From IMG/VR virus record IMGVR_UViG_3300035698_001696, positions 1 through 30,589 of that record: a stretch of 30,589 nucleotides of DNA, one strand, 5' to 3'. Below, one piece after another: positions 1,176-24,066 of the stretch. The notes under the pieces are model-generated. The model did not search any database. It was given only the letters and a program-made list of their open reading frames with translations, and had not been told where the DNA came from. Each line of letters begins with the position of its first letter. Within the stretch, counting starts at the first letter, position 1. Made by a program: the position numbers and the translations under genes. The DNA comes from a virus.

Positions 1176-1550
1176 CTACCACCTCGCTAAGTTACCACGT
1201 ATATCTATGTGGGTGAATGTTTTGTAAGCATGAAGCCCACCTTTAGGCAACACACCCATTCTCTGGAACCTATCTAATATGGGGAACAGCCTCTTAGGGC
1301 TGATACCTTTAAGTTTAAAATCTGCAGCTATACCGTGCATATGCTTAGAGCCTCTCGCTCCGTTGACCTTCTTGTTATACTCAGGTGTTCTATAACCAGA
1401 TGTGATGGTCATAGTCAAGCCTGTGATAGCTCTTACTATCTCTAGTGCTTCGCATAACGGTTTAAGTTTAAGGTAATACCAGTTAGCAGGGTAAGGGTTG
1501 CCATCCCTGCATCTAAACTCGTCTGACTTTAAGTGTTTGGTTATCTTCAT
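1176..1550 (-). CDS. Endolysin, M15-family zinc peptidase (D-Ala-D-Ala/L-Ala-D-Glu type)
   Basis: A 124-aa single-domain enzyme with the peptidase M15 (M15_3-like) signature. There is a Ser-Gly-Tyr-Arg motif at residues 51 to 54. The SKHMHGIAAD box at 68 to 77 matches SxHxxGxAxD and supplies zinc ligands His70 and Asp77. THIDIRG at 113 to 119 contains the third ligand His114. The chain ends in Arg-Trp, as many members do. Such enzymes cut peptide bonds in the peptidoglycan stem peptide. There is no signal peptide or separate cell-wall-binding domain, so a holin is needed for export. The start overlaps the preceding gene's stop (ATGA) with only an A-rich leader, so translation is probably coupled. 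It opens the lysis cassette. Confidence 0.9.
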   Translation of the reverse strand: MKITKHLKSDEFRCRDGNPYPANWYYLKLKPLCEALEIVRAITGLTMTITSGYRTPEYNKKVNGARGSKHMHGIAADFKLKGISPKRLFPILDRFQRMGVLPKGGLHAYKTFTHIDIRGNLARW

Positions 1551-4500
1551 TTTTTCTTCTTAGCTTCCTTCTTAGTTTTTCTCTTACGTAGTAGTTCTCT
1601 ACCCTTCTTAACACCAGCCGCTGCACCTATAAGACCTATCTCTACAGGTCTCTTTAGTATGGCAGTAGCAGGAGTGTATTGTCCTATAGCTCCTATGAAA
1701 CCTCCAATACCCTTCATCTGAAAAGCACTAAGAGCTTCTACTACAGGCATGAACGGTTGCCCTACCATACCTAAGCTAGACATAGCTGGATGACCTAATA
1801 AAAAGTTTGCCATGAACGATTGCCCCGTAGCTACCTTGGCTGCGCCCCAAGCTGCACTCGTAACCATAGGATACAACAACCTACCTACAAATCTTTTAGC
1901 GTGGGGGTCACCGTTCTTTAACCCTTTTAAAATACCAGCACCTCCACCACCACGTTGCATGTCTTTATAATCTGCCAGCATAAGGTTATAATAATTCCTA
2001 GCCCAAGTATGAAATGGCATGTTCTGGCCTACAGGCCCCTCTAACCACGGAGGTCTATCACCTCTGCCATAATACCAATTACCACGGTACGCTTCAGTAA
2101 TAGCGTACGCGTCTGCTGCGGCTTCAAAGCCTTGCTTCTCCCATGTGTCTAATATCTTGCGCCCCTCAAATCTAGGATCAAGGTGAGGGTTATCTTTAAC
2201 AAACGCTTCTTTGCTTCCGTATTCTTTAAACTTATACCAAGCCCATGCAGCAGCTTCCTGTCTGTTCAGTGTGTCTCCAGATCTATGCAGATCCATGCAG
2301 GCTTGTCCAACACCGGCAAGATCAAGAGCTTTAAATAGTTTCTTCCTCGGTACATCAGGGTTAGCTTTTGCAAACTGATCGTACAGATGTTCCTTCGTAG
2401 GAACCATTCTATCTTTGGTTCTCTCTAACATAGCGTTAAGCTCTGGGTCTTTTTTGCTGTATCTGACATTCTTCCTAGCCTTCATATACAGATCAAATCT
2501 TTTTAGCTCAGGGAATAATGTGTTAAAATTCTGCACGCGCTGGAACACCTGTGGTTTCATTCTACCTGCTACCAATGCGTTGTATGTGAGGTGCATAAGA
2601 TCAGAATACATCTCTGCCTTTACAGAAGGGGTAGTGTCAAAGTTACTTAGGATAGACTGTAACTCTGCATCACCATACTTAAGCTGCTCGTTCACCAGTA
2701 TGCGACGTGTGTCTTTAACATCAGTTATACCTAGTGTCTTACCTACATAAGTTTGAAGGGCATTGGCTGCGCTAGAGTTACCCATCCTCTCATACATATT
2801 TATTATCTCACCATATAAAGGCATGTCAGGTTTCCATGTTTGCTCTGCCGTAACCTCTCTAGCTAAACGCTGAGTGAGCTTCTCTATATCCCATTCGTAA
2901 TCTCTGGATTTTCTAGGTGGCCCTTTTCTTTCTTTAGTATATGGTGAACTAGACTTACCTTTGCTACCGAGGATACCTTCTCTCGTTCTTCTAGGAACAT
3001 ACGCAGGATGATAGTCACCACCACCTACGGAATGCCATGAGTCTAAACACTCACGCATACCAACCAAAGCTGCAAGCTGTGGGCTACCAGCTTCATAGGG
3101 CATTCTGCCTTTATACTCTGGGATGTGATCTTTAACTCTACCATCCGATCTTCTAACAACCAGCTCCGATGGGTCCCAGACTATTCTGTTACCGTCGTTC
3201 CTAACGTACTGTAGTAACTCACCAGCTTCTTGCATTTGTACATTGGCGCGTCTTAAATTAGTGATCGCTTCTATAGTGCCTGTGGTTGCTGTGTTCTTTA
3301 TTAATTTATTGCCATATTCTATAGCTCTGCCCTTTACAGAATCAACAAGATCCCACGCACCACCACCGGCCTTACGTTGGAACTCTTTAGCAGCAGTTGC
3401 CATGGTAGGCTGGCTGAGTATAGCATCCACACCAGCTTTCTTTATAAACCTGGCAGTAGGATCGTAGCCGTTACTATACAGCTCATGCTGTATCATGGTG
3501 TTGGTATCTTTCTCGTAGTTTGCTGCTTCTTTTCTAATCGTGATAGCTATGTTACCAGAGCTTCTACCTTTGGCTTTAAGCTCTTTAGCTCTGGCTTTAA
3601 AATGTGGAACTCTATCAGCGGTTCTCTTCGCTACGATGTCCATGTATATCCCAACAGAAGGATCAAGGCCGCTAACATCTAGCGTGTTAGAAAGTTCCTT
3701 AACTTGATTACCAGCAGTACGTGTCTCACCAGTCTTAGGGTTATACTCTTGCAACACAGTAGGTGGTGCTCTTCTATACCCATGAACCACAGGGTAGTTA
3801 CCACCCTTGCCAAAAGAGGAAGGTAGAGGTGTAACAGTTTCTGAAGTCTTAGCTGTCGATGGTAAGCCTATAACACTAGGCCCAGCTTTTTCACCTAGCT
3901 CAATAGGTCTTCCCTCTGGTGCTCCCAACTCCATGACACCTTCGGACGGTTTCTCTTTAGACCTAATGTTTATGACACCCTTGCCTCTAGGCTCTGGTAG
4001 TTCTATAGCATCGTTCAAAGAAACTACAGTTTGATCTACAGGTCTTGAAGTTCTGCGGCTGTACTCTTTACCAAGTTTAACTAACGGATGAGACTGAGCT
4101 ATCTCGTTAAGAAATGCAGGTGGAGTATTTTTTAAGTATGGGTTTGCTCCAAAGATTTTATTACCATCTATCTGGGTTAACGCAGCTTCAACACGCTGCA
4201 CCTTTAACGCTTGTCTTCTGTAGTATGGGAGTTTCTTCTCGGTCGGTGTTAAAATAGGTTTGCCAATTATGCTTTCGTATTCTCCAGCATAGTAGGTTAT
4301 CTCTGGGTTAGAGAGCTTACGATACGAGGCAGACTCTGCTTGTCTCCCAGCCATAGTAACTTTACCGCCCAACCTAAGCGGTGTCTGAGTAGCGTATGGT
4401 TTGTCACCCTCTGGTATAGAGTTCTTAGTTCCGTACCTTAGAAGAGACGCGGCCATATCTCCATGACCAATAGATTCTAGATCCTTAGCAGTTTGCTTGA

Positions 4501-5755
4501 TAGTATCGAACTTCAACTTAGCTGTCTCACCATTGCCAAGGTTGATGCTCTTCTCGCCATTCATGTTAATAGGACCTTTTACTTTGCGCGGAGAAGGTGT
4601 CCAGTTAAGCTTCGGTGCTTCTTCAGGTAATGGTTCTACAGCTTCGCCCTTCATGTTCATACGGCCCTTGACTTTTTTTGATATAGGTAAATCTTTAAGA
4701 GGTTTACCTGTTATAAGCTCAGGGTACTTACCAGCTAGGCCAGCTTCTTTAACACCAGCTACAAACTCTTTCATGTTAGAAGACCCTTGCTCTATAGCAT
4801 CTAACGTCATCAGGTCTTTAACTATTACATTAGGGTTAACCTTCTTAGCTCCTATGAAATCTTTTACTACCCTAGCTAGCTTGCCAGGGTTAGTGGCTAA
4901 AGGAAGAAAGGACAGAGCTGTAGCCTCAGCTAAAGCATCTTCATGATTAGTGCCAGCTGCTCTGGATGTAAGGTATGTCACCCCAAACAGAGACGGTAGT
5001 TGGGCAGACTGAGGCATAGCCCCTGTACCCTTCATTATACCACCGAAGAGATAACTCTGCGCAGCAGATATTCCCATGGTCGTTAAGTCTTTGTCGAGGT
5101 TCTGTATCATCGAAGAAGCTGCAAGCGTCCGTTCGATACCCATACCTGCAGATCCTATCAACGCAAACTCAGCTGATCTACCACCAAGGTGCGCTACACC
5201 TTCCAAGCTCTTAGAGAATATAGGACGTTCTTTAACTGCGGGATGAGCCATTAATGACTCAGCATATTTCTCGCTAGTAACTTCACCTTTTCTCAATAAG
5301 TTCTTGGCTATGTAACGCCCTGGAGATAGAGAGGTTAGTACTTCCTCTGCACCAGCGGCGTATGCTTCACCTTTGCTATAGCCCACAGTATTGAACAACT
5401 TCTTCATAGTCCAAGGCAATAGAGCTGGTCCTTGTAACGGACCCATAGGTGTTTCAAGTATGTTAGTAGCGGCACGATAGGTAGCAGCACCAGCCTTTGA
5501 CAACCCAGACATTATAGAGTTACCAGCAGCTATGCCCCAACCTGCAGCTTCATTAGCTATGGCAGAAGCAACTGTTTCTTTGTCCTCGGTAGCTGCGATG
5601 GTAGCTTCTTTGGTAGCTAGATCGTTAGCGTCTGGGAAGAACTGTTCACGGATTATATCTTGTGCAGCTTCTATAGGTACAGACACAGGAAACTCAACAC
5701 TGCCATGGTTAGGTACTTCTACACTATAGTAACCGCTATTATCTTTGTTAGGCAT
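1547..5755 (-). CDS. Very large probable internal virion/DNA-ejection protein, 1402 aa
   Basis: The gene follows AGGAGGGC with correct spacing and is by far the longest here. Residues 10 to 40 form a short domain with a Val-Glu-Phe-Pro core followed by a helix, resembling the start of large phage virion proteins that I recall as typical of podoviral ejection proteins. Residues 60 to 300 are Ala/Gly-rich helical segments with weakly hydrophobic patches. Residues 350 to 660 are Pro/Gly-rich, probably disordered, and contain recurring Lys-Gly-x-x-Asn-Met motifs. The rest is helical and rich in aromatic and charged residues. The C-terminus (1290 to 1385) is hydrophobic and ends in a Lys-rich tail. 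I see no lytic transglycosylase motif. It sits last among the structural genes, just before lysis, as T7 gp16-like proteins often do. The function is inferred. Confidence 0.6.
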   Translation of the reverse strand: MPNKDNSGYYSVEVPNHGSVEFPVSVPIEAAQDIIREQFFPDANDLATKEATIAATEDKETVASAIANEAAGWGIAAGNSIMSGLSKAGAATYRAATNILETPMGPLQGPALLPWTMKKLFNTVGYSKGEAYAAGAEEVLTSLSPGRYIAKNLLRKGEVTSEKYAESLMAHPAVKERPIFSKSLEGVAHLGGRSAEFALIGSAGMGIERTLAASSMIQNLDKDLTTMGISAAQSYLFGGIMKGTGAMPQSAQLPSLFGVTYLTSRAAGTNHEDALAEATALSFLPLATNPGKLARVVKDFIGAKKVNPNVIVKDLMTLDAIEQGSSNMKEFVAGVKEAGLAGKYPELITGKPLKDLPISKKVKGRMNMKGEAVEPLPEEAPKLNWTPSPRKVKGPINMNGEKSINLGNGETAKLKFDTIKQTAKDLESIGHGDMAASLLRYGTKNSIPEGDKPYATQTPLRLGGKVTMAGRQAESASYRKLSNPEITYYAGEYESIIGKPILTPTEKKLPYYRRQALKVQRVEAALTQIDGNKIFGANPYLKNTPPAFLNEIAQSHPLVKLGKEYSRRTSRPVDQTVVSLNDAIELPEPRGKGVINIRSKEKPSEGVMELGAPEGRPIELGEKAGPSVIGLPSTAKTSETVTPLPSSFGKGGNYPVVHGYRRAPPTVLQEYNPKTGETRTAGNQVKELSNTLDVSGLDPSVGIYMDIVAKRTADRVPHFKARAKELKAKGRSSGNIAITIRKEAANYEKDTNTMIQHELYSNGYDPTARFIKKAGVDAILSQPTMATAAKEFQRKAGGGAWDLVDSVKGRAIEYGNKLIKNTATTGTIEAITNLRRANVQMQEAGELLQYVRNDGNRIVWDPSELVVRRSDGRVKDHIPEYKGRMPYEAGSPQLAALVGMRECLDSWHSVGGGDYHPAYVPRRTREGILGSKGKSSSPYTKERKGPPRKSRDYEWDIEKLTQRLAREVTAEQTWKPDMPLYGEIINMYERMGNSSAANALQTYVGKTLGITDVKDTRRILVNEQLKYGDAELQSILSNFDTTPSVKAEMYSDLMHLTYNALVAGRMKPQVFQRVQNFNTLFPELKRFDLYMKARKNVRYSKKDPELNAMLERTKDRMVPTKEHLYDQFAKANPDVPRKKLFKALDLAGVGQACMDLHRSGDTLNRQEAAAWAWYKFKEYGSKEAFVKDNPHLDPRFEGRKILDTWEKQGFEAAADAYAITEAYRGNWYYGRGDRPPWLEGPVGQNMPFHTWARNYYNLMLADYKDMQRGGGGAGILKGLKNGDPHAKRFVGRLLYPMVTSAAWGAAKVATGQSFMANFLLGHPAMSSLGMVGQPFMPVVEALSAFQMKGIGGFIGAIGQYTPATAILKRPVEIGLIGAAAGVKKGRELLRKRKTKKEAKKKK

Positions 5756-11285: not shown

Positions 11286-13007
11286 TTAAGATACTGTAGG
11301 ATGATCCGAATCTTCAGCAGCTTCGGCCTCTACTATGTACCCATAAATTTCGCAGTCTTCTTCAACACTATCTACGTTAGGCTCATTAAAAAATATAAAC
11401 TGGATACCATTTCCACTACCTTGTAACGGCACTGGGATCTTCTTCAAAGTTCCACCAGATAGAAGAGCGTCTAAGTCTGTAGCTCCGCTAGAACCTGTAG
11501 CTCCTATGATACCAGCTCCTATAGTAAAGAAGCCTATAATAGAAGCCCCTGTAACATCGGTAGACCTAGAGTAAGCTGCCGTAGTATCTGCAGTTGTCAT
11601 AGGCACTGTCTCGATTGTAACACCTTTGCTATCTACCTGGTAAGCAACTTTTATCTCTCCAGTAGATTGCGGCTTGATTATTAACCATAGCTTAACAAAG
11701 TTCCAAGTTAGATCAGGACGAGAGTTCGGGTACACGGTCGGTGTAACAAAGTACATACCTTGTGGAGCTCCGAACATAGAAGTCTTAGCCTCATCTAGCT
11801 TGCCTATGTTAAGGTCAGTCTCTCTGCCTATGAGAGTACCTGTCCTGAACCTAGAGTTGTTGTAGCTGCACATAGCTGCGCAGTCGTAGTCTTTTCTCTG
11901 GAACCACTGACCAGATACTGTGTTCAAGCCTAGCAGCTTAGTGTTAGATGTTCTGCCTCTTCTCGTTAAAGCTAAGAGGTAAGAGTTTAAGTCAGGATCG
12001 TACACAGCCCACATGTTCTTAGTACGGTAGAAATCTGTGTCGTTCATGTACTGCTTATGGATAGGGAAGGACAAGAACGTAGCCGATACATCACCGAACT
12101 TATCGGTAGTGGCTAGGCTATGTATCCCCTTGTCAGAAGCCCAGATAACATCTGTAGCTGTAGCTACAACAGAGTTGTGCTCAACACAGCCTATGCCCCT
12201 GCCTACAGAACCTACACTGTACGTGAGTGTACCCAGATCAGCCGAGTATAAAGACTTTACACGATATAAAGATTTGCGTTTAGATACAAACAGCTCACCA
12301 TAGAACGATGGGAACAAGGCTGTTATGCCTATAGGATCGTTATCTCCAGCATCTAGGTCTATCGACCCAGCGTTACCAGGAGCTAGTATTCTCCAATCCC
12401 TAAGATCATCTACTGAAGAGTAGTACAACCTATGCGGGTATAGAGGATTACCAGCTAGCCACATTCTCCTATCGTGCATTCTGCACAGCGAGAACGTAGG
12501 GTTAGGATTCGTAATAGCGTCGTATGATGGTAAATGCTGAGCGTGTACAGCGAAGCAGACAGCGTCATAGTCCACTACATTACCTGCCATATTCCAGAGC
12601 AGAGGGGTAGACGTACCGAAGCACATAGCGAGATAGCCATAGAAGACTTCAAAGGTTATCTTCTCGTCTCTCAGCAACGTGAAAGCGCCTGTAATGTCAG
12701 CGAACCTACCATCAGCAGAATCTGCCCATAGCTTGGCACCAGCAAAGGCTACCAGTTTATGGTATTGTACCCCACCTTCTTGCCTGTAGTAGTCGTACAG
12801 ACCACGCATATCAGCACTGATATCTGGATGAAAACCATTTTTATAGTAATCGCTTAGACCCCAGAACTTCTTCCTTGAGCTATTAACAGAGAAGACAATG
12901 TTGTCACAGTCGTACATGCTCTTAGGATCTTGAGAGCCAGCCATAGTGGACTGGTCTAGTCCTAGAGTAGAAGGATATGCCAACACCTTCCCTGTTCTTT
13001 TAGTCAT
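11286..13007 (-). CDS. P22 gp10-like tail nozzle / DNA-stabilisation protein
   Basis: A 573-aa beta-rich protein. I take ATG 13007 (behind TAGGTTTGACT) rather than the TTG at 13013. The sequence contains repeated blade-like strands with patterns such as Leu-Tyr-Tyr-Ser-Ser-x-Asp-Asp-Leu, Gly-Glu-Leu-Phe-Val-Ser-Lys and Asp-Val-Ile-Trp-Ala-Ser-Asp-Lys-Gly-Ile, typical of the beta-propeller-like nozzle proteins of podoviruses (P22 gp10, T7 gp12 type). The C-terminal 120 residues form a separate Gly/Ala-rich domain, perhaps the fibre-binding part. The protein would extend the adaptor ring, close the DNA channel and carry fibres. Its start overlaps the adaptor's stop by 8 bases. I am confident in the class, less so in exact homology. 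Confidence 0.7.
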   Translation of the reverse strand: MTKRTGKVLAYPSTLGLDQSTMAGSQDPKSMYDCDNIVFSVNSSRKKFWGLSDYYKNGFHPDISADMRGLYDYYRQEGGVQYHKLVAFAGAKLWADSADGRFADITGAFTLLRDEKITFEVFYGYLAMCFGTSTPLLWNMAGNVVDYDAVCFAVHAQHLPSYDAITNPNPTFSLCRMHDRRMWLAGNPLYPHRLYYSSVDDLRDWRILAPGNAGSIDLDAGDNDPIGITALFPSFYGELFVSKRKSLYRVKSLYSADLGTLTYSVGSVGRGIGCVEHNSVVATATDVIWASDKGIHSLATTDKFGDVSATFLSFPIHKQYMNDTDFYRTKNMWAVYDPDLNSYLLALTRRGRTSNTKLLGLNTVSGQWFQRKDYDCAAMCSYNNSRFRTGTLIGRETDLNIGKLDEAKTSMFGAPQGMYFVTPTVYPNSRPDLTWNFVKLWLIIKPQSTGEIKVAYQVDSKGVTIETVPMTTADTTAAYSRSTDVTGASIIGFFTIGAGIIGATGSSGATDLDALLSGGTLKKIPVPLQGSGNGIQFIFFNEPNVDSVEEDCEIYGYIVEAEAAEDSDHPTVS

Positions 13008-13983
13008 AGTCAAACCTATGGTGTTTGTTATAACGTCCGCTACGGCCAGAGTAATATCTACGAAGGTCAGGTACTAGCTGAGGTCTGTTAGTAGTAGTCT
13101 CTGTATCAGCTTCCATATCGGACATCATCCTGCTGAACTTAGCGTCAAAGTCGTCGCCCATATCTTTGTTACGCTCTCTATAGTACATGTCAGCTAGAGC
13201 ACCGTATAATAGAATGTGTCTCTTCTCTCTTGGAATGAGAGGTTCATCAGTGTCGTTCTCTAGCAGAGTTACTTTCATCAAGTAGTCAAGATGTAAGATA
13301 TAATCTTCGCTAGGAACTAAAGGCCAAAGCATACCCTGCAAGTTATCAACATTACCACCAAGGAAATCGTACCCTAGTAAGAACTCTCCTAACGCTGGGC
13401 CTTCGTAGCCCTTGAAACCTGACACCGTTATAGCCTCAGCCTTGCCCTCGTAGTACGGGTTAGCTACGGCTCTATCTACGAACTCTCTAGGGGTAATCAC
13501 CTCTATGGGGGTACGATGGTAGTCGTGCCAAGCGTAGTCTATCTCTTCACAGTCAGGTGGTAAGCCTATCAAATACTGTGAGATGGTGTAGCTGCTAGCA
13601 GCCACTGTCTCACCTATATAGACACTAGACATCTCTGCTGTCTGAGCCACTGTGTCGATAGCTATGATCTGATAGACATCGTTGGCTCCTGGTACTCTTA
13701 TAAACCAACCCTCGTGTTTCTTAGTCCAAGCTGTAGCAGTGCCAGTGACAGTACGGTTGTCGTTAATGAAATCCACTGTACCTGTGGTGTACTTCTTGCT
13801 GATCTTAATATCGAACCTAGATTTACGCCAACGCCACTTCTTCTGCGAAGCTATAATCTCGTATCTTGTGTTGATAGATTCTTTAAGCGCCTCTAAGAAG
13901 AGAGCGTCAGTAACAGGAATTTTTATCCTACGAGATACGGATTGGATTATATCAAGGTACGTCTTAGTTCTGAATATAGCCAT
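13000..13983 (-). CDS. Head-tail adaptor / head-completion protein (P22 gp4-like position)
   Basis: The frame is open from 14010, but ATG 13983 overlaps the preceding stop as TAATG and has AAGGATGG upstream, so 327 aa is preferred. Residues 1 to 50 are helical and end in Lys-Trp-Arg-Trp-Arg, a basic aromatic stretch often seen in adaptor proteins. Residues 60 to 130 form a small beta domain with Gly-Thr-Ala-Thr-Ala-Trp. Then come a Leu-Pro-Pro-Asp-Cys segment and a C-terminal helical region. Position directly before the nozzle gene supports an adaptor that binds the portal ring and accepts the tail. No other gene here fits that role. Confidence 0.65.
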   Translation of the reverse strand: MAIFRTKTYLDIIQSVSRRIKIPVTDALFLEALKESINTRYEIIASQKKWRWRKSRFDIKISKKYTTGTVDFINDNRTVTGTATAWTKKHEGWFIRVPGANDVYQIIAIDTVAQTAEMSSVYIGETVAASSYTISQYLIGLPPDCEEIDYAWHDYHRTPIEVITPREFVDRAVANPYYEGKAEAITVSGFKGYEGPALGEFLLGYDFLGGNVDNLQGMLWPLVPSEDYILHLDYLMKVTLLENDTDEPLIPREKRHILLYGALADMYYRERNKDMGDDFDAKFSRMMSDMEADTETTTNRPQLVPDLRRYYSGRSGRYNKHHRFDYD

Positions 13984-14225
13984 TAGAACCATCCTTTTAT
14001 ACGTTGCCATTGCAGCCTAGCTACTATCCCTATAAAAGCAACAGCACCCAGGAACCCGTAGATTATCCTAGAGTTGAAATCTATTTTCTTCCACATCCTG
14101 TTGTGTTGCCTGGTATTCTCACTACAATACCCATCTAACTTATCTTCGGTATTTTTAGTAGTGGTTTTGATAACGCTCACTTCTTTAACTATATCTAGAA
14201 GCAAGCTCTCTGTATCTATAGGCAT
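13983..14225 (-). CDS. Small membrane protein, holin/XhlA-like topology
   Basis: An 80-aa protein after AAGGAGACACC. Residues 1 to 50 are charged and helix-forming with a coiled-coil pattern (several Lys, Glu and Asp), followed by one hydrophobic segment at about 54 to 68 and a basic aromatic end. A cytoplasmic coiled coil followed by one C-terminal membrane span resembles the hemolysin XhlA/holin-associated group. It sits far from the lysis cassette, next to the adaptor gene, which overlaps its stop. It may be a second holin-like protein, an antiholin, or a membrane-active virion component. Confidence 0.5.
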   Translation of the reverse strand: MPIDTESLLLDIVKEVSVIKTTTKNTEDKLDGYCSENTRQHNRMWKKIDFNSRIIYGFLGAVAFIGIVARLQWQRIKGWF

Positions 14226-14710: not shown

Positions 14711-17700
14711 CTAGTTATAAAGCATTCTATATATAACATCTACAGCGGCACCACCAGCAGCACCAGGATCAACAGTGATTCTGAACGCGTCATCTATTGA
14801 ATAAGGTCCAAGGTATACTGCATCCTCGTTAGCTACTGTGAATGCGGCAGAGACTAAATCCTGTAAACCACCACCGCTTACATCGTAGTACACTCTGATA
14901 GTGTAGTTAACTGTAGCGTTCTTCATGTCCAACCAAATGCTCTTGATCTCATACTGTTGTTCTGTGGCATTTGTGAAGTCTATGAGCGTCTGCTCGTTAG
15001 CTGTTTCGTCTATGCTGACAGTATCATTCTCTATCTTGTATTTCTGTACTAAAGCAGGACCACCTGAGTTGGCTATGTTGCCAGACTGCTCACATAAGGG
15101 AGCGTCTATGCTGTATCCATCACTTATCTCTGTGATGAGGTTATCATAAATATATCCAGTTGACGTAGCCCCAAGCGTAATAGCATGAGTAGTAACTACA
15201 ATGGTTTTCAATCTGTTTCTGCCTATCTCAGTACCATCGCAGTTAACACCAGAGTATATAGGCCCGTTGTCCCATGTGTTAGTTTTGTCAATACCATCGA
15301 ACATGTTGTCAAGTATCTGGACGTTGTCAGTGTCTGCACTCTCTAAAACTATCGCTCTATCTGGGCCATCGGCAGAGGTGTACCATAAGTTCTTTTCAAG
15401 CAACGCTCTGTCACCAGCATCTGGTATTGTGATGGATTCCTGATCGTACAAACCCTGTTCAAACACACAGTTTCTTATGATACAACCGTAGGCACCTATG
15501 TTAATCTGAGAGGCTATACCCGCGTTGGTAGTAGCTTCAAATGCTATGTTGTCTATAATGACGTTGGCACCTGTTACAGTGATGGCATCATTAGCACCAA
15601 GCTCTGTGCCATCTACTACGAAGGTAGGTTTATCAGCACCAGAACTTATACCAACGATAGATGTGGAAGGTGCGTCTAGGGTAATAGTATCGTTGATGGT
15701 CTCATAATGCGTAGGCATTATGTAGATAGTGTTACCACCACCAGGAGCTACAATACCAACAGCAGCATCTAGTGTAGCTTTAGCAAGCACTGGGCTTAGG
15801 CCACTGTAGTTGTCATCACCATTATCTCCATCGACAAAAACTGAAAGCGAAGTAGTTCCGTCTTTAAACTCAGTACCATTGCCGATTATGTTGTTATTAA
15901 ATTCTACAACACCTATGCCACCAGCGTTTATATGGTATCCCTGCTGTGAGGCCAAGATGGTGTTACCCATTATCACTGCACCTACACCTGCGTCACCGAC
16001 ATCAATTAGGAACTGAGCAGCGGTTTTATATACGAAGGTGTTGTTCTTAATAGTCATGGAATCTGTTTGATCTGAGTAGATAGCGTTAACATCCCACACC
16101 CAAGCCACTGATGCTCCATCAAATATATTGTCTTCTATAATTAGCCTAGTAGCTGCACCAGATGCGTTGTAGATAACATAGTCAGACCCATCAGCTACAG
16201 CTAAAAACTGGTTGTTTCTGATGGTTACTTCTTCTGTCGCACCTTCAAACTCTATGGCCTGTAAGTCATTAGTACCGAGTTCAAATCTGCACTCCTCGAT
16301 GAGAATATCTTGAACAGCACCTATGGCTATATGCCCTGGAGTAGCAGCTGTATCATTTGGTTGAAATATAATACCCCTGACAGCAATATCGGGAGCAGAG
16401 ATAAGCATGGTCTGATCCGCAGCAGCTAAACTGTTCTTCAGCCTTGGTCTATCTTCGCCAATGCCAAGACCTACAATACTTACTCCTGATGTATTAACAT
16501 CTATCTGTGTCTCAACATCTTCGTTATGTCCTGGCATCAGAATGATAACATCGTTTGCATCTGCAGTTGAATGAACAATACCAGCAGCTAAAGTAGCACA
16601 AGGGTTTTGAAAAGTAGGAACTATAACATCGTCACTGCCAACATTGCTATTAACATATATGTATCTACCTGAAGTTTGTGGAACACCTTCGTGAAGTTTA
16701 TTTATGTCATGTGATGTAGTGTAGTTATCTGTAATAATAAAACGCACAGCATCTGCAAAAGGTTCTCCGTCAAAAAACGAGTTGTTCCTGATAATGCCAA
16801 GAGCCGTAGTATCGGAGTATGTTATAAACTCTATCCCCGCTGGAGTTCCAAAGAACACATTGTCTTCAATTCTAATAGAGGAATCAGCTTGGCTTGAATA
16901 GATAACACCATCATCCCAATTAAAACCACCACCAAAAAATTCGTTTCTCCTTATGGTCAGAATGTCTGTAACGTCTGTATTGGAGTAGATAGCATAATCA
17001 GGACCATTGGCTGAGACTAAGAACTTATTGTCTTCTATTCTTATATCAGAACATCCACCAGTTGCGTTAAGAAATGTTATACCTTGTAAATCATACTGAC
17101 CAGAATAAAAAGCACAGTCATGGATAAAGATACAATCAGACAATCCCTCGAATTCAATATGGCCTATAGTATTAGCTGATGTAGCAGAACCAAATATAAG
17201 ACCTGCCATCTCTACATTGTCTGCATCTATTCTAAGCGTTGCAGCTGTACCAGCACCGTAATTAGAACCAAATCTAGGAGCGTTCTCTCCATGACCAACA
17301 CCTATGATCTTAATACCATCTACATCTATATCTATCTGTACAGTTACAATCTCTATATGCCCAGGCATGACTACGATCATGTCTCCCTGGTCAGCAGTAC
17401 ATAAGTCTATGGCTCCATTCAATGTAGCCATAGCATTTGTTGGTGAGGTTCCTGAGTTAGTAGCGCTACCCAAGGTAGAACTTACAAAGTAGATATCACC
17501 TGTCGTAGATTCTGGAGATTGTGAATGAGAAGTCTTAACTGTGTCAGGTACTATCACATCTCCGGTACCTGGGACTAAGGCTCCGCTACCGCCACCACAT
17601 TCTACTAATTCATAAGCTCCTATAACAAGTGGTGCTCCACCGTAGTTAACAACACATATGCCTGTAGCTGCTGCAGTGAAGTTGATACCCTGACAGAAGT

Positions 17701-18448
17701 TAAATGTATTCCATCCTATAAATCCCTGTGTATGTATTACCGTAGAGTATATAGCCCCGTTATCCCAAGCGTTGGCTGCACTCATGCCATCAAAGTAGTT
17801 GTTGAGAATAATAGGTTCCGTAGTACCAGCAGACTCTATGATTATAGCAGAGTCAGGACCATCTTCCTCAACCCTGAAGACGTTATTCTTTATTACACTT
17901 TCATCTCCACCGTCCTGCATGGTGACTGAGAGCAGAGCGTACTGGTTACAAGCAAAAGAACAACTATCGATAGTAACACCGCCTTGGATATCTACGAACG
18001 ATTCCATGGCACTCTCTGCTTCGAATACGATATCTTTAATCACACAGGATTCGGCTGTTACTTCAACTAAGTCCAACGTAGCATCATCTAAATCAGCCTT
18101 GAGCACTGGTCTGAGATCTCCAGAACCTAGCCCAACTATTATCACGCCAATTTTATCTAAGGTTATAGCCGCCGTTGCTCCAGCGTTAGCAGCCTCAAGA
18201 GTTTCATCATGTCCTGGCATGACATAGATTACATCGCCTCTCTCGTCTTTACATCTTCCAATAGCGTAGTCCAGGGTAGCAAATGGTCTCATAGGGGATA
18301 TGCCATCATTACCATTAGACGCGCTTATAGCCCCGTCCAAGGTGTTGGTCGTTCCATTTCCCACGAACCAAACCTCGCCAGATGTATCTTGCCACTGTGG
18401 ACCTATAAACTGTCTAGCTTTTATGATATCATATTCAGAAGCACTCAT
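14711..18448 (-). CDS. Giant beta-helix virion protein B, 1245 aa
   Basis: The gene begins behind CTAGGAGAATGCT. Residues 1 to 20 are a charged helix. Four tandem modules of about 275 residues follow (approximately 24-285, 315-585, 594-860, 867-1125), each reading like a pectate-lyase-type right-handed parallel beta-helix with repeated Ile-x-x-Asn-x-Phe ladders. All four carry the same signature: Met-Pro-Gly/Thr-His (His at 80, 364, 641, 914), a Gly-Pro-Asp-like box (from 195, 480, 752, 1026) and Trp-Asp about 31 to 33 residues later (Trp 228, 511, 785, 1059). Residues 1130 to 1245 are a separate beta domain unlike that of its paralogue. No signal peptide and no obvious catalytic set are seen. 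It is probably a fibre or decoration protein binding glycans, though a polysaccharide lyase activity cannot be excluded. Confidence 0.7.
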   Translation of the reverse strand: MSASEYDIIKARQFIGPQWQDTSGEVWFVGNGTTNTLDGAISASNGNDGISPMRPFATLDYAIGRCKDERGDVIYVMPGHDETLEAANAGATAAITLDKIGVIIVGLGSGDLRPVLKADLDDATLDLVEVTAESCVIKDIVFEAESAMESFVDIQGGVTIDSCSFACNQYALLSVTMQDGGDESVIKNNVFRVEEDGPDSAIIIESAGTTEPIILNNYFDGMSAANAWDNGAIYSTVIHTQGFIGWNTFNFCQGINFTAAATGICVVNYGGAPLVIGAYELVECGGGSGALVPGTGDVIVPDTVKTSHSQSPESTTGDIYFVSSTLGSATNSGTSPTNAMATLNGAIDLCTADQGDMIVVMPGHIEIVTVQIDIDVDGIKIIGVGHGENAPRFGSNYGAGTAATLRIDADNVEMAGLIFGSATSANTIGHIEFEGLSDCIFIHDCAFYSGQYDLQGITFLNATGGCSDIRIEDNKFLVSANGPDYAIYSNTDVTDILTIRRNEFFGGGFNWDDGVIYSSQADSSIRIEDNVFFGTPAGIEFITYSDTTALGIIRNNSFFDGEPFADAVRFIITDNYTTSHDINKLHEGVPQTSGRYIYVNSNVGSDDVIVPTFQNPCATLAAGIVHSTADANDVIILMPGHNEDVETQIDVNTSGVSIVGLGIGEDRPRLKNSLAAADQTMLISAPDIAVRGIIFQPNDTAATPGHIAIGAVQDILIEECRFELGTNDLQAIEFEGATEEVTIRNNQFLAVADGSDYVIYNASGAATRLIIEDNIFDGASVAWVWDVNAIYSDQTDSMTIKNNTFVYKTAAQFLIDVGDAGVGAVIMGNTILASQQGYHINAGGIGVVEFNNNIIGNGTEFKDGTTSLSVFVDGDNGDDNYSGLSPVLAKATLDAAVGIVAPGGGNTIYIMPTHYETINDTITLDAPSTSIVGISSGADKPTFVVDGTELGANDAITVTGANVIIDNIAFEATTNAGIASQINIGAYGCIIRNCVFEQGLYDQESITIPDAGDRALLEKNLWYTSADGPDRAIVLESADTDNVQILDNMFDGIDKTNTWDNGPIYSGVNCDGTEIGRNRLKTIVVTTHAITLGATSTGYIYDNLITEISDGYSIDAPLCEQSGNIANSGGPALVQKYKIENDTVSIDETANEQTLIDFTNATEQQYEIKSIWLDMKNATVNYTIRVYYDVSGGGLQDLVSAAFTVANEDAVYLGPYSIDDAFRITVDPGAAGGAAVDVIYRMLYN

Positions 18449-18499
18449 AGCATTCTCCTAGAGATTAGAATAAAATGAGACATGAGGAGAAAGCGAGAT

Positions 18500-18518
18500 A
18501 GGGAGAACGTAGCTCCCT
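18500..18518 (-). terminator. Hairpin between the two beta-helix genes
   Basis: In the 89-bp spacer there is a perfect 6-bp inverted repeat (AGGGAG and CTCCCT) with a 7-base loop. On the minus strand it follows the stop of the first gene by about 20 bases and is followed by a pyrimidine-rich but not purely T tract. It could be a weak terminator, an attenuator or an mRNA-stabilising hairpin that lets the upstream gene be expressed more strongly than the downstream one. Confidence 0.3.
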
Positions 18519-18537
18519 CCCCAAGCTCATCAAGTTA

Positions 18538-21500
18538 TTAAGTAGCTACAACTGTTGCACCCTCATCAAGAGGAATGTACCATAACTCAGCAGCCACAGT
18601 ATGACCACCGGCAGTAGCGTCAACAGTTCCAAGTCTATCTATGGTTCCTACACCAACAATCATCGGACTAATCATAGCCGATGCTGCGCCAGCAACCCCA
18701 CCACCAGTCAAAGCAGTTCCTACTTCGCCAGTAATTGAGAAAATCGAAAGCTGCTCAGCGGCAGTTACGTTGAACGTGCCACACATTGCAGAACCAGTTC
18801 CAACCGTCGGGTTCATAACAACGCTTGCCAAACAAGCTGCTGCTGCAACTGCTGCACCATTAACTTCCAAGCTAACCTGAGTAATAAGCACTCGTCCACC
18901 AGCTACCGTGAACATTGTAACTTGGTTGTTATCGAAAGCTAAATCGACATTAGCAGCTCTCTGTACTCTATACCCTAGCTTATCATTCTTAAACGAACTA
19001 GAGAAGTTCGCTTCCATCAGAGGTGTAAACTCTGCACCAGTACCAAATGGAAAATGAGATGTCGTACCTAAGAAGTAGTTGCCCTTCACTGCGAACTGCG
19101 CAGGTGCCGTAGTATCGAACAGACACATAGAAGCGTTATCTCCACCATCACCCTGTATCACGTTGTCGAGATACATGGCTCCACCATTTGCAAGTCCATC
19201 ATTGTCGATGAAGTACGAATCAGCAGTAAGCTGATCTGCATAGTTACCCTTAACTATGGTTCTTACACCAAGGTCATGAATCATAGCAATTGTAACTGGT
19301 TGTCTGATGAAGTAATTCTTCTCGATACGAGTATCGGAAGATGTAGCTGCTACATCAATAGAGATGAGGCTGGCTACATTCTGTGCATCGAAGTAACAGT
19401 CATGGATATAGTTAAAATCACCAGTATCCAAATCTATCAGCATCGGTGTGGTTGTCTGAGAAGCGTTACCGTATAATCTTAGACCGTATATCTCACAGTT
19501 ACTACCAGTGAGAGTAATAAGATCAATGTCAGCAACCGTAGTTAATGTGACATTAAACGTACCATCATCGACATACGGACCTAAGATAACATCATCTTCC
19601 GTTATAGCGATAGCCGCAGCCAAGGAATAATCACCTGGTTGCATTAAGATCCTATCACCGATACCAGTCCTTAACTTAGCAACAGCGTCTACGATTGTTG
19701 TAGGAGCTGTAGGAGTTAAGCCGTTTCCTGCAGTTGCTCCACCAGCTACATATAACGTAACAGGAGTTGCATCGTTAGGAATTACACCTGCACCATAAGC
19801 TTCACCCTTACCAATGTAAGTAGAACCAGACGTATCAAGATCATATGCTGTACACCATTCATAGTAGTTATTATCTAACAACATGCTGGTATGATTAACA
19901 CTGGAATTAATAGCAGCGTCATCCCATGTATTTGTAGAATCTCCACCATAGAACCTATTACCTTTGAATAAACCAAGGTCACAGGTAGCAACTTCAATCT
20001 CTATAGCGGAATCAGGACCATCTGCCATAACTCTAAACTTATTATCAATAACATACAGTCCACCGTTATCTTCCCAAGTAATACACTCAAGATCATTCAC
20101 TCCGAGGAAGAACCAGCAGTTCTGAATCTTAACATTCACAGCGTTGACATTAATCATAGATGTCGCAGCTGCTGTAGATTCAACAAAGACTATGTTATCA
20201 ACGACAGTATCTGCACCTGTAATATTAAAACCATCTACGACACCATTGATCGTGAAGATTGGTCTACTTACGCCCCAACCGATACCTAAGACTTTAACGC
20301 CCTGTACATCCATTGCGACAGGAGCAGTGAGAGTCTCTGCATGTGAGAATACTACGATAGTATCACCAGCAGCTGCGTCATTAAACGCAGAATCAAGGGT
20401 GATCGCTGGTGTCTCTATAGTGCCACCTTCAGAATCAGCGCTACCATAAACAGAGCTAACATATATAAACTTACCAGTAGATTGCTCGTCACCTTTAGCA
20501 AACTGTTTACCATCTGGCCCTGAATACGTGTTACCTTTTATACCAACTACACAAGTGGGAGCATTGATACCATAGCCAGCATCATGGTCTAAAATCTTAT
20601 TCGTATCTATAATCATAAAAGCACTTGTACTAGAATATACAATCGCGTCTGTTGCAGCAGTTACAAATAAGAAATCATTGTCTTCTACGTATCCATCAAC
20701 ATCGTCTTGGTCTGAGTAGATAATACCATCATCCCAAGTGTTAGTATCACTACCACCGAAGAAATAGTTTCCTCTGATGTTAAGTTCCGAAGAAGCAGAT
20801 GCTACTGAATAGATAGCGTAGTTAGGACCGTCAGCCCCAACCTCAAACATATTGTTCTCTATACGCATCCCTGTGTATCCACCGCCACCTAACAGGGTTA
20901 AACCTTGTAGATCATTAGCACCCTGAGAGAATTTACAGTCATGGATAAAGAGATCATCCACAAGACCTGCGACCGATACGTTACCAATAGTAAACGCAGA
21001 AACTGCTGCTGTGAAGTTGATGCCTGCAATCTCCACATCGTCAGCATCGATAATAATTGCTGCTAATGCACCACCAGTGAAGTTAGATCCAATGGCTGGC
21101 ATCTGGCTTCCATTGCCTATACCAACAATCTTGATACCATCTATATCTACATCAACCTGTACTGTGACCTGCTCAGCATGGTTAGGCATAACAACTACCA
21201 TGTCACCATGGTCTGCTACACAAGCACTAACACCAGCATCTAATGTTGCGAATGCCGTAGTTGGTGAAGCACCTGTGTTTGTATCAGCACCAGTTGCGCT
21301 ATCAACGAAGAAGATATCCCCAGTTGTAGACTCAGGAGCCTGTGTGCTTGAGTCCTTAACTGAATCAGGAATAACTATCGTCGGTGAAGAACCACCTATA
21401 CTTCCACCACCGCCTGCTTCAATAAGTTCACATGCACCAACTGTATAAGGTGCTCCACCATAATTCCAAACTACCATACCAGTTGCAGCTGCTGTGAAGT

Positions 21501-22266
21501 TAACACCTGTACATTCTGCAAATACATTAAATCCTACGAAACATCTTGTATGGATTACAGCAGAGTTAATAGCTGCAGAGTCCCATGTGTTTGTAGAATC
21601 TTCGCCTTCAAACCTGTTACCCATGATGACGAGGTTCGTGGCCCCTGCATCTTCGATCTCAATAGCAGCGTCTGGTCCATCAGCAACTACAAAGAACGAG
21701 TTGTTCTTAATAGTACAGTCGTCAACGTCGCCTATAGTAACAGCTTCAAGAACATAAACTCCACAATAGAACTTACATGCTTCTATAAGAGTAGAGTCTT
21801 CAGCAACAGCAACGAGCGATTCCATGGCAGAAATTCCTACTAACTGGACATTTCTAATAACACAGTTCTCAGATGTAACCTCGAACATATCCAAGGTAGC
21901 GTCATCCATGTTAGCACCAAAAACAGGTCGGTTATTACCATATCCTAATCCGATAATTTTTACAGCCTCGATATCAAGAGTAACTGCTGCAGTACCACCA
22001 GCGTTAGCTTCTGTATAAATTTCTTGATGACCAGGCATAACGTAGATAATGTCACAACGCCCAGCCTTACAGCGACTAATTGCGTAGTCAACAGTTGCGA
22101 ATGGACGAAGAGGTGAGATACCATCGTTGCCATTTGAAGCACTGATAGCTCCATCTAGCGTGTTAGTAGTTCCGTTACCTACAAAATATACTTCGCCTGA
22201 AGTGTCCTCCCACTGAGGACCGACGAAGTGTTTTGCTTTTACAATATCTAAGTCTGTCATACTCAT
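18538..22266 (-). CDS. Giant beta-helix virion protein A, 1242 aa
   Basis: ATG 22266 follows AAAGGAGATTGTT. The architecture parallels the downstream paralogue: a short charged N-terminus, three canonical modules (about 24-285, 315-580, 597-825) and a fourth, diverged one (836-1080). The signature residues are His80, His363 and His642, the Gly-Pro box from 195, 478 and 748, and Trp228, Trp511 and Trp781. The spacing from box to Trp is exactly 33 in all three. Module four keeps the beta-helix look but replaces the His motif with Gln-Pro-Gly-Asp-Tyr. Residues 1090 to 1242 are an Ala/Gly/Val-rich beta domain. Codons such as CGT, GGT, GAC, TAC and ATT are favoured compared with its paralogue, suggesting high expression. 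Its place two genes after the capsid gene suggests an abundant head or neck appendage. Confidence 0.7.
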   Translation of the reverse strand: MSMTDLDIVKAKHFVGPQWEDTSGEVYFVGNGTTNTLDGAISASNGNDGISPLRPFATVDYAISRCKAGRCDIIYVMPGHQEIYTEANAGGTAAVTLDIEAVKIIGLGYGNNRPVFGANMDDATLDMFEVTSENCVIRNVQLVGISAMESLVAVAEDSTLIEACKFYCGVYVLEAVTIGDVDDCTIKNNSFFVVADGPDAAIEIEDAGATNLVIMGNRFEGEDSTNTWDSAAINSAVIHTRCFVGFNVFAECTGVNFTAAATGMVVWNYGGAPYTVGACELIEAGGGGSIGGSSPTIVIPDSVKDSSTQAPESTTGDIFFVDSATGADTNTGASPTTAFATLDAGVSACVADHGDMVVVMPNHAEQVTVQVDVDIDGIKIVGIGNGSQMPAIGSNFTGGALAAIIIDADDVEIAGINFTAAVSAFTIGNVSVAGLVDDLFIHDCKFSQGANDLQGLTLLGGGGYTGMRIENNMFEVGADGPNYAIYSVASASSELNIRGNYFFGGSDTNTWDDGIIYSDQDDVDGYVEDNDFLFVTAATDAIVYSSTSAFMIIDTNKILDHDAGYGINAPTCVVGIKGNTYSGPDGKQFAKGDEQSTGKFIYVSSVYGSADSEGGTIETPAITLDSAFNDAAAGDTIVVFSHAETLTAPVAMDVQGVKVLGIGWGVSRPIFTINGVVDGFNITGADTVVDNIVFVESTAAATSMINVNAVNVKIQNCWFFLGVNDLECITWEDNGGLYVIDNKFRVMADGPDSAIEIEVATCDLGLFKGNRFYGGDSTNTWDDAAINSSVNHTSMLLDNNYYEWCTAYDLDTSGSTYIGKGEAYGAGVIPNDATPVTLYVAGGATAGNGLTPTAPTTIVDAVAKLRTGIGDRILMQPGDYSLAAAIAITEDDVILGPYVDDGTFNVTLTTVADIDLITLTGSNCEIYGLRLYGNASQTTTPMLIDLDTGDFNYIHDCYFDAQNVASLISIDVAATSSDTRIEKNYFIRQPVTIAMIHDLGVRTIVKGNYADQLTADSYFIDNDGLANGGAMYLDNVIQGDGGDNASMCLFDTTAPAQFAVKGNYFLGTTSHFPFGTGAEFTPLMEANFSSSFKNDKLGYRVQRAANVDLAFDNNQVTMFTVAGGRVLITQVSLEVNGAAVAAAACLASVVMNPTVGTGSAMCGTFNVTAAEQLSIFSITGEVGTALTGGGVAGAASAMISPMIVGVGTIDRLGTVDATAGGHTVAAELWYIPLDEGATVVAT

Positions 22267-22366: not shown

Positions 22367-23053
22367 TTACCTAGTTTGTGCTACATAAAAATAATCTACT
22401 GCCATAGTTTTGATTACAGCCTCACCATTCTGTATTGCGAAGCTAAGTGCTAACTCTGTTGTAGGAACCTGAGTCGTAATCTCAGATACCTTAACATCGT
22501 TAATGTATCCTTCTACTAATCCAGTACCTGATACTTTAAAACCTAGCTTAATCCATGTTGCATCAGCAAGGGTACCAACTGCTGTCTCTGTAGAGGCGAC
22601 GCTGGTATTCATACATACAAAGTCTATACCAGTAAGAGTATCATCAGATTTGAAGTAGATACCATCAGAGATGCCGTCTATTAAAGTTGTGTCTGTATCG
22701 CACAGTCCAAATACAAACTCACTCTCTGTCGCATCATTGATCTGTATCCTTGTTTCGAAGTAGATATGATCGCCAGCAGTAGGAATAAATGTCTCGCTCG
22801 TATATTGAGCCTCTTGGCTATCGTCGTTAGCCGCAGCGTTAGTGACAAGCAACACTCCACCCTTAGCATCTGTCAATGCAAGAGACCCTGCACCTGTTGC
22901 TGTGATAGTAAAGTCACCAGCTGTATAAACTTGGAAATCTTCCCAAGCTTCTACGTAGTAAGCTGGCCTACCGAATACATAGTCCTGCCACATACCAGGA
23001 GATGTCTGATTCGCAACTTGAATCGCGTCTCCATCCAGCCTGTGTAGTTTCAT
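22367..23053 (-). CDS. Jelly-roll/lectin-like structural protein, 228 aa
   Basis: An upstream in-frame ATG exists at 23068, but GGGAGGTTTAATT sits between it and ATG 23053, so I choose 23053. After a 40-residue N-terminal part containing Trp-Gln-Asp-Tyr-Val-Phe-Gly, residues 45 to 225 are beta strands in an order that recalls concanavalin-A-like lectin/glucanase sandwiches: Tyr-Phe-Glu-Thr-Arg-Ile-Gln-Ile, Phe-Val-Phe-Gly-Leu-Cys, Trp-Ile-Lys-Leu-Gly-Phe-Lys-Val, then Val-Glu-Gly-Tyr-Ile-Asn. It is the first gene after the capsid gene and its possible terminator. The likely role is a capsid-surface decoration protein, perhaps carbohydrate-binding. No catalytic residues can be assigned. Confidence 0.6.
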   Translation of the reverse strand: MKLHRLDGDAIQVANQTSPGMWQDYVFGRPAYYVEAWEDFQVYTAGDFTITATGAGSLALTDAKGGVLLVTNAAANDDSQEAQYTSETFIPTAGDHIYFETRIQINDATESEFVFGLCDTDTTLIDGISDGIYFKSDDTLTGIDFVCMNTSVASTETAVGTLADATWIKLGFKVSGTGLVEGYINDVKVSEITTQVPTTELALSFAIQNGEAVIKTMAVDYFYVAQTR

Positions 23054-23148
23054 AATTAAACCTCCCATACCTAATTAACCCACGCCCAACCCTCCACACC
23101 TCCGCCTTGAACTACAACCCGCAAGGTCACGAGTAAAAGGGGGAAGAC

Positions 23149-23163: not shown

Positions 23164-24066
23164 CTATGCTCCAGGCGTTCCAAAAACTCCGCGCCACTCG
23201 TCGTACCCATAACTAAATCTATTAAAGATTTTAGTTTTGGAAGCTCTTGCTTCCCAGTCAACATCAGAATCCGTACCTACAGGTTCCCTTTCGTACCACA
23301 TCAGGTTATGCTCACTCTTATCAGCAAACAGGAACCACGCATCAGGATCTGTCAGGTAATTCCAGACTAAGTAGTCTAGGTTCACCATCTGGAAAGCATT
23401 GATTGCGTTGTTCGCGTTGTCAGGTCTGAGAGATGACTTCGTGAGTTCTTCAGCTGTCCATCTTTCCTCGTTAGGAATAAGCATCCAACGGGGCTGGATA
23501 TTAAGAAGAAGACCTCTGTCATCTACAGTGTCCTGCATCTGGTTAAGAGCTTGCCTTAGTGAAGCAACTGACAAATCAGCAGCTACAGGCAAAGCGTTGC
23601 TTGACGTTCCACCACCAACAAGTGGATGGAGCGTATTGAACAACGACATACCATCAGGACCAACATCAGCGAAACCACCGTTAAGAACGGAAGCTGCAGA
23701 TATCTGACGTGTATTGAACATCGACCTACCCAAAGCTTGCGTAGCCTTTGAGATGATACCCCACTTCTCATCATCGATTAACTCTTTAGAAATTCTAAAA
23801 GCTAATGCATAAGCAGTATGGGTATAGGTCTTGTCATACGCCTGGTAGAAATCATCATACGTTACTGGAGCGTTCTCAGCTTTCTCAGGAACTAGACCGA
23901 AGCCTGTGATCCCAGTAGCTTGCTCACCCCACTTATCCGAAGACATCACATTAAAAACCTGTGCGATCATATCTGGATAAGATTGGTATTTTTCCATTGC
24001 CACTCTCTCCAACACCGGCAGAGCGTCAGCAAAAAACAGATCAGAAAAACCTCCTCGAAGAGCCAT
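23164..24066 (-). CDS. Major capsid protein, HK97 fold, Mu gpT-like
   Basis: A 300-aa protein behind AGGAGGTAATAT. It has the layout of the Mu gpT-like head subunit family. An N-terminal helix (RGGFSDLFFADALPVLERVA) is followed by a Tyr-Pro-Asp-Met segment. Then come a Phe-Arg-Ile-Ser-Lys-Glu-Leu-Ile-Asp-Asp-Glu-Lys helix (about residues 93 to 105), a Leu-Phe-Asn-Thr-Leu-His-Pro-Leu motif near 146, and a C-terminal Trp-Tyr-Glu-Arg-Glu-Pro then Phe-Ser-Tyr-Gly-Tyr. The Asn-Thr-x-His-Pro motif and the late Arg/Tyr-rich strand are hallmarks I recognise. It assembles the icosahedral shell on the scaffold encoded upstream. The size is typical and there is no N-terminal delta domain. Confidence 0.85.
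   Translation of the reverse strand: MALRGGFSDLFFADALPVLERVAMEKYQSYPDMIAQVFNVMSSDKWGEQATGITGFGLVPEKAENAPVTYDDFYQAYDKTYTHTAYALAFRISKELIDDEKWGIISKATQALGRSMFNTRQISAASVLNGGFADVGPDGMSLFNTLHPLVGGGTSSNALPVAADLSVASLRQALNQMQDTVDDRGLLLNIQPRWMLIPNEERWTAEELTKSSLRPDNANNAINAFQMVNLDYLVWNYLTDPDAWFLFADKSEHNLMWYEREPVGTDSDVDWEARASKTKIFNRFSYGYDEWRGVFGTPGA

Follow-up and report, generated by a model that had tools for sequence, protein, structure and literature searches.

T4 Hoc and the giant Hoc of Serratia phage Muldoon are chains of repeated domains that bind the capsid at one end. Relatives of T4 Hoc reach up to 1174 residues with ten Ig-like domains, a single phage can encode both a long and a short paralogue, and a role in adhesion has been proposed (PMC10385173). 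In atadenoviruses, the protein LH3 forms a beta-helix knob on the capsid, with a capsid-binding element below the knob (PMC8156859). The RcGTA head fibre is a flexible, adhesive fibre anchored by a short N-terminal peptide, and binds capsules in a polyvalent manner (PMC7296036). No tailed-phage decoration built as a parallel beta-helix appears in a 2020 review of viral decoration proteins (PMC7602432), and our search of the openly accessible literature found none either.

The window, that is the whole stretch of DNA analysed here, comprises 30,589 bases and represents an entire IMG/VR virus record, linear and possibly a fragment. Its minus strand encodes, in this order, a terminase, an SU10-type portal, three to four small genes, an HK97-type capsid protein, a 233-aa protein, the giant proteins B and A, two small genes, an adaptor-like protein (SU10-like, below the Pfam cut-off), a P22-gp10-like protein and further genes without family. 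The capsid protein shares 34-40% identity with its counterparts in Pelagibacter phage HTVC023P, Roseobacter phage CRP-901 and Planktothrix phage Pag-Yong1. B starts 898 bp past the capsid gene and A comes next. The two proteins are paralogues, 52% identical over residues 1-668, and each consists of four homologous modules of about 275 residues, followed by an unrelated C-terminal piece (Table 1). The N-terminal extension of about 22 residues comes before module 1 only in both proteins. The 233-aa protein is perhaps an alternative head accessory protein. Its homologues occur as two tandem copies past the capsid gene in MW202601, in which no beta-helix match was found, and as one copy directly after the beta-helix gene in the loci L020 and L121. 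Elsewhere in the window, a 1402-aa protein without PHROG or Pfam match (1547-5755) adjoins a peptidase M15 endolysin-like gene (1176-1550).

Table 1. Features of the B/A cluster and its neighbours, in positions of the window
Feature	Residues	Position	Strand	Remarks
Protein A	1-1245	14711..18448	-	N-terminal peptide, four beta-helix modules, C-terminal piece
Protein B	1-1242	18538..22266	-	architecture as in A; paralogue of A
A, N-terminal extension	1-22	18383..18448	-	proposed docking peptide (putative role); only before module 1
B, N-terminal extension	1-22	22201..22266	-	proposed docking peptide (putative role)
Module A1	1-314	17507..18448	-	His80, GPD 197-199, WD 228-229
Module A2	315-593	16670..17506	-	His364, G482, W511
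Module A3	594-866	15851..16669	-	His641, G754, W785
Module A4	867-1140	15029..15850	-	His914, G1028, W1059
A, C-terminal piece	1141-1245	14711..15028	-	no family found
Module B1	1-313	21328..22266	-	His80, G197, W228; tree partner A1 (support 100)
Module B2	314-597	20476..21327	-	His363, G480, W511; tree partner A2 (support 96)
Module B3	598-833	19768..20475	-	His642, G750, W781
Module B4	834-1109	18940..19767	-	divergent, signature absent; tree neighbour is module 2 of L115 (long branches)
B, C-terminal piece	1110-1242	18538..18939	-	no family found
Major capsid protein, HK97 type		23164..24066	-	upstream neighbour of B/A cluster
233-aa protein		22367..23068	-	between capsid gene and B; no family; homologues in same neighbourhood elsewhere
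SU10-adaptor-like protein		13000..14010	-	weak match, under the Pfam cut-off; first neck gene recognised downstream

The modular build of A and B, proposed in a preliminary description of this DNA, was borne out by a profile made from 76 single-module proteins, all from other viruses. With this profile, A and B yielded four modules each, no more and no fewer (E 6e-132 and 9e-107 for the whole sequences; per-module E from 7e-40 to 8e-9 across all eight), and 100 shuffled sequences yielded none, which rules out that the regularity arose by chance. Pairwise comparisons between modules gave E-values down to 1e-125. Seven of the eight modules carry the three-part signature that had been noticed before, a His, a Gly-Pro box and a Trp-Asp, at the positions first given, with the names A and B swapped relative to the coordinate order. 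The eighth module, B4, lacks the signature, yet was detected as a true module (E 8.4e-9). From the His to the Gly of the box, the distance is 108-118 residues, and from the Gly to the Trp it is 31 residues, except in A2, where it is 29. The 33 and 31 residues originally reported for the second distance came from a counting offset, which amounts to one or two residues in the first description.

In a tree built with a quick method, the window modules form a group with L114, the first module of L115, and L144 (support 94). A1 pairs with B1, A2 with B2, and A3 joins A2 and B2 (support 98), which indicates that an array of at least the first modules predates the duplication of the gene. The grouping of B4 with the second module of L115 joins long branches and may be false.

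Searches of PHROGs, Pfam and NCBIfam with the modules gave no usable match, and neither did the PDB by sequence. Pfam and PHROGs also assigned no family, Hoc capsid-binding and Ig-like domains included, to A, B or their C-terminal pieces, the latter being modelled at low confidence. PHROGs returned one weak tail-protein match to B (E 0.005). Scanning metagenome viral contigs with whole A and B revealed no relative, and the members in IMG/VR were reached afterwards, with a single-module query. A translated search of GenBank phages matched one of 50,697 records, and four of 84,980 prokaryote genomes matched, all of them metagenome-assembled. The sole GenBank phage member found (MW202647.1, 24458-25357) has the product name 'lacto-N-biosidase', which probably reflects fold similarity only.

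Three scans of IMG/VR yielded 148 genes, of which 142 have a single module and nearly all of these about 300 aa; these numbers are affected by the choice of query patterns and by partial redundancy among the contigs. Two modules are present in L115 and L116, which are probably one virus sampled twice, three in L141, and four in each of A and B. L114, which starts 23 bp after its own capsid gene, has at least three modules before its contig ends. Copy number in the family, for which a profile scan had been suggested at the outset, thus runs from one to four. Two tandem single-module beta-helix genes (L031, L033, L051, L090) are a possible step towards fusion. Other relatives combine a single module with a long C-terminal extension of unknown nature (L021, L075, L091, L140, L142, L143; 469-621 aa in total). 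The earlier statement that no named family has this module is right for the databases, but the module is no orphan. It represents an unnamed virus family, common as a single-module gene in uncultured tailed viruses.

The module was taken from the start to be a defined structural unit, and the prediction agrees. With 67 alignment rows, module A1 is modelled as a right-handed parallel beta-helix (pLDDT 81.5 on average, core about 95). A model of the chain of about 1200 residues repeats the unit four times, as the early reading had anticipated, albeit at low confidence (pLDDT 54). In this low-confidence model, each repeat opens with its own cap helix (residues 14-19, 298-303, 575-580 and 845-854), and the stretches between the repeats are of low confidence too. 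The model suggests that the modules are separate beads.

For 98 of the 106 unique complete genes, a capsid gene lies no more than 6 kb upstream. The capsid type is M371 in 53 cases (median gap 97 bp) and M10 in 36 (median gap 610 bp, usually with one gene of about 160 aa between). The remainder comprises M9953 (n=6), M1357 (n=2) and one candidate unrecognised by PHROGs. M371, M10, M9953 and M1357 match different PHROG major-head families. In the typed loci (L022, L060, L111), head-tail adaptor or head-closure proteins follow downstream. The gene slot between capsid and neck genes is the usual place of head accessory proteins. Podovirus tail genes likewise come after the capsid gene, so that position is no proof of a role in the head.

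In the single-module proteins, the first 22 or so residues lie outside the beta-helix, and two motifs, defined after inspection of the sequences, recur there. All 33 genes with an FPxG N-terminus go with M371 capsids, and of the 24 with LFxPGG, 22 go with M10 capsids and two have no detected capsid gene. Neither motif fits 43 genes, A and B among them. When sought on other genes of the loci, the motifs were found in none of 1200. A tree of the beta-helix bodies only requires no fewer than 12 changes of capsid type, and phylogenetically independent pairs show the N-terminal type following the capsid type by 5.4 to 0 (median p about 0.06, which is borderline). The simplest reading of these sequences would be that beta-helix bodies are exchanged between viruses, with the peptide matched to the capsid.

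These observations also bear on the possibility that the family forms a tailspike or another tail appendage, such as a receptor-binding beta-helix trimer on the neck, and that its gene lies beside the capsid gene by happenstance. The fold class is common to many phage tailspikes, including those of Pam1 and HK620, and neck genes are close downstream. However, the gene precedes the adaptor genes in the typed loci instead of following tail genes, the type of N-terminal peptide varies with the capsid family, and no tailspike family was matched. We therefore regard a tail appendage as unlikely.

The next alternative concerns the chemistry of the module. Solved beta-helices match the A1 model with Z of about 20-22 (for 6kfn, Z 22.3 over 235 residues, rmsd 2.7), among them alginate and rhamnogalacturonan lyases, glycosidases, the tailspikes of Pam1 and HK620, and the adhesin PfbA. 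The Foldseek matches also include LH3, a beta-helix protein with a cementing role in atadenovirus capsids. Polysaccharide lyases and glycosidases rank highest among the structural matches, which would fit a virion-borne polysaccharide-degrading enzyme with the invariant His80 and Glu82 in its active site (found in 75 and 76, respectively, of the 76 outside single modules). Yet the matched enzymes belong to many families that differ in their chemistry, so that the matches show the fold and not the function; furthermore Asn139, invariant in the single modules, is kept in only three of the seven window modules that carry the signature. An enzymatic role appears improbable to us, even more so than a place on the tail.

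An alignment of 92 modules places the signature in a wider context, as it is a selection out of about 30 conserved columns. The Gly-Pro box is present in the window modules, L114, the first module of L115, and L144. Likewise, Trp228-Asp229, inside an insertion loop, occurs in 7/7 window modules and in 4/4 modules of the L114, L115 and L144 relatives, and the other 76 single modules lack it. A signature unique to the window is thereby rejected. In sequence terms, it joins a family-wide mark (His80/Glu82) to a subclade mark (Gly-Pro box and Trp-Asp). A shared binding site was suggested at first; a single site made of all three parts is not supported: in the module model, His80 adjoins strand 81-84, about five coils from the other two parts, as judged from strand order and not from coordinates. 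The Gly-Pro box lies just before strand 200-204 and Trp-Asp just before strand 231-235, on neighbouring coils, and in this model the box and the Trp could possibly form one small surface site.

Signal-peptide-like starts were found in two of the 106 relatives, L073 (5863-6795) and L141 (7743-10664), in one of them followed by an FPNG docking-type motif. Such a start is odd for a virion protein, and our best explanation does not account for it. It would suit a protein outside the virion, either an assembly factor or one exported to the envelope of the infected cell, but with only two cases and a head-cluster position across four capsid families, we consider this very improbable.

We judge it fairly probable that A and B belong to a family of capsid-docked head decorations or adhesins, here expanded to four beads and then duplicated. 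This reading draws on homology, the fold, the position between capsid and neck genes, an N-terminal class that follows the capsid family, the intermediate copy numbers (L115/L116, L141, L114), and LH3 among the Foldseek matches. On the other side, A and B themselves fall outside both N-terminal motif classes, and the fold is common to many enzymes and tailspikes. From the former evidence we infer the presence of A and B in the virion, their docking on the capsid, the binding of a ligand and the bead arrangement. On this reading, A and B are tandem duplicates, each with four modules, of a beta-helix protein that normally has one module and belongs to the head gene cluster in many uncultured tailed viruses. 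The short N-terminal peptide would dock on the capsid, and the beta-helix modules would stand off the shell as beads. Each module of the subclade might offer a surface patch, made of the Gly-Pro box and the Trp-Asp loop, which binds a cell-surface or environmental glycan, a ligand suggested by the fold and by the Trp in an exposed loop. Four chained modules and a doubled gene would then provide greater avidity and reach.

Compared with the known systems, the MW202647 protein and its IMG/VR relatives are nearest to A and B, with homology over the whole module and a gene right after the capsid gene; they differ in having one module, about 300 aa, and no Gly-Pro box or Trp-Asp loop. The Hoc proteins resemble A and B as strings of repeated domains with paralogues and one capsid-binding end, which in A and B is putative. 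In contrast to A and B, they consist of Ig-like domains and usually have the capsid-binding domain at the C-terminus, and no sequence relation is claimed. LH3 is like the proposed form of A and B in its knob on the capsid, but is a trimeric animal-virus cement protein with a single beta-helix, and the likeness is one of fold only. The RcGTA head fibre offers a parallel for the proposed N-terminal anchor, yet it binds a base-protein pentamer, and a base protein is not evident for A and B. The tailspikes of Pam1 and HK620 share the fold and differ in gene position and N-terminal peptide; a tail location is not indicated for A and B. The two proteins are members of an unnamed beta-helix family, and membership among Hoc, LH3 or tailspikes is not claimed.

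More tentatively, and with some doubt, we propose a widespread, undescribed class of head decorations of tailed viruses built on the parallel beta-helix. Exchange of a short N-terminal docking peptide would let its bodies move among four or more unrelated capsid families, and one lineage would have been chained into multivalent adhesins with four beads, or eight per pair. Adhesins displayed on the head determine where a phage stays until it encounters a host. If the proposal is true, tailed phages would have a common yet unnamed parallel beta-helix decoration, and a natural experiment in which the same body, with one to four modules, is carried on different capsids via different short peptides. 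The short capsid-docking tags would then be a testable prediction.
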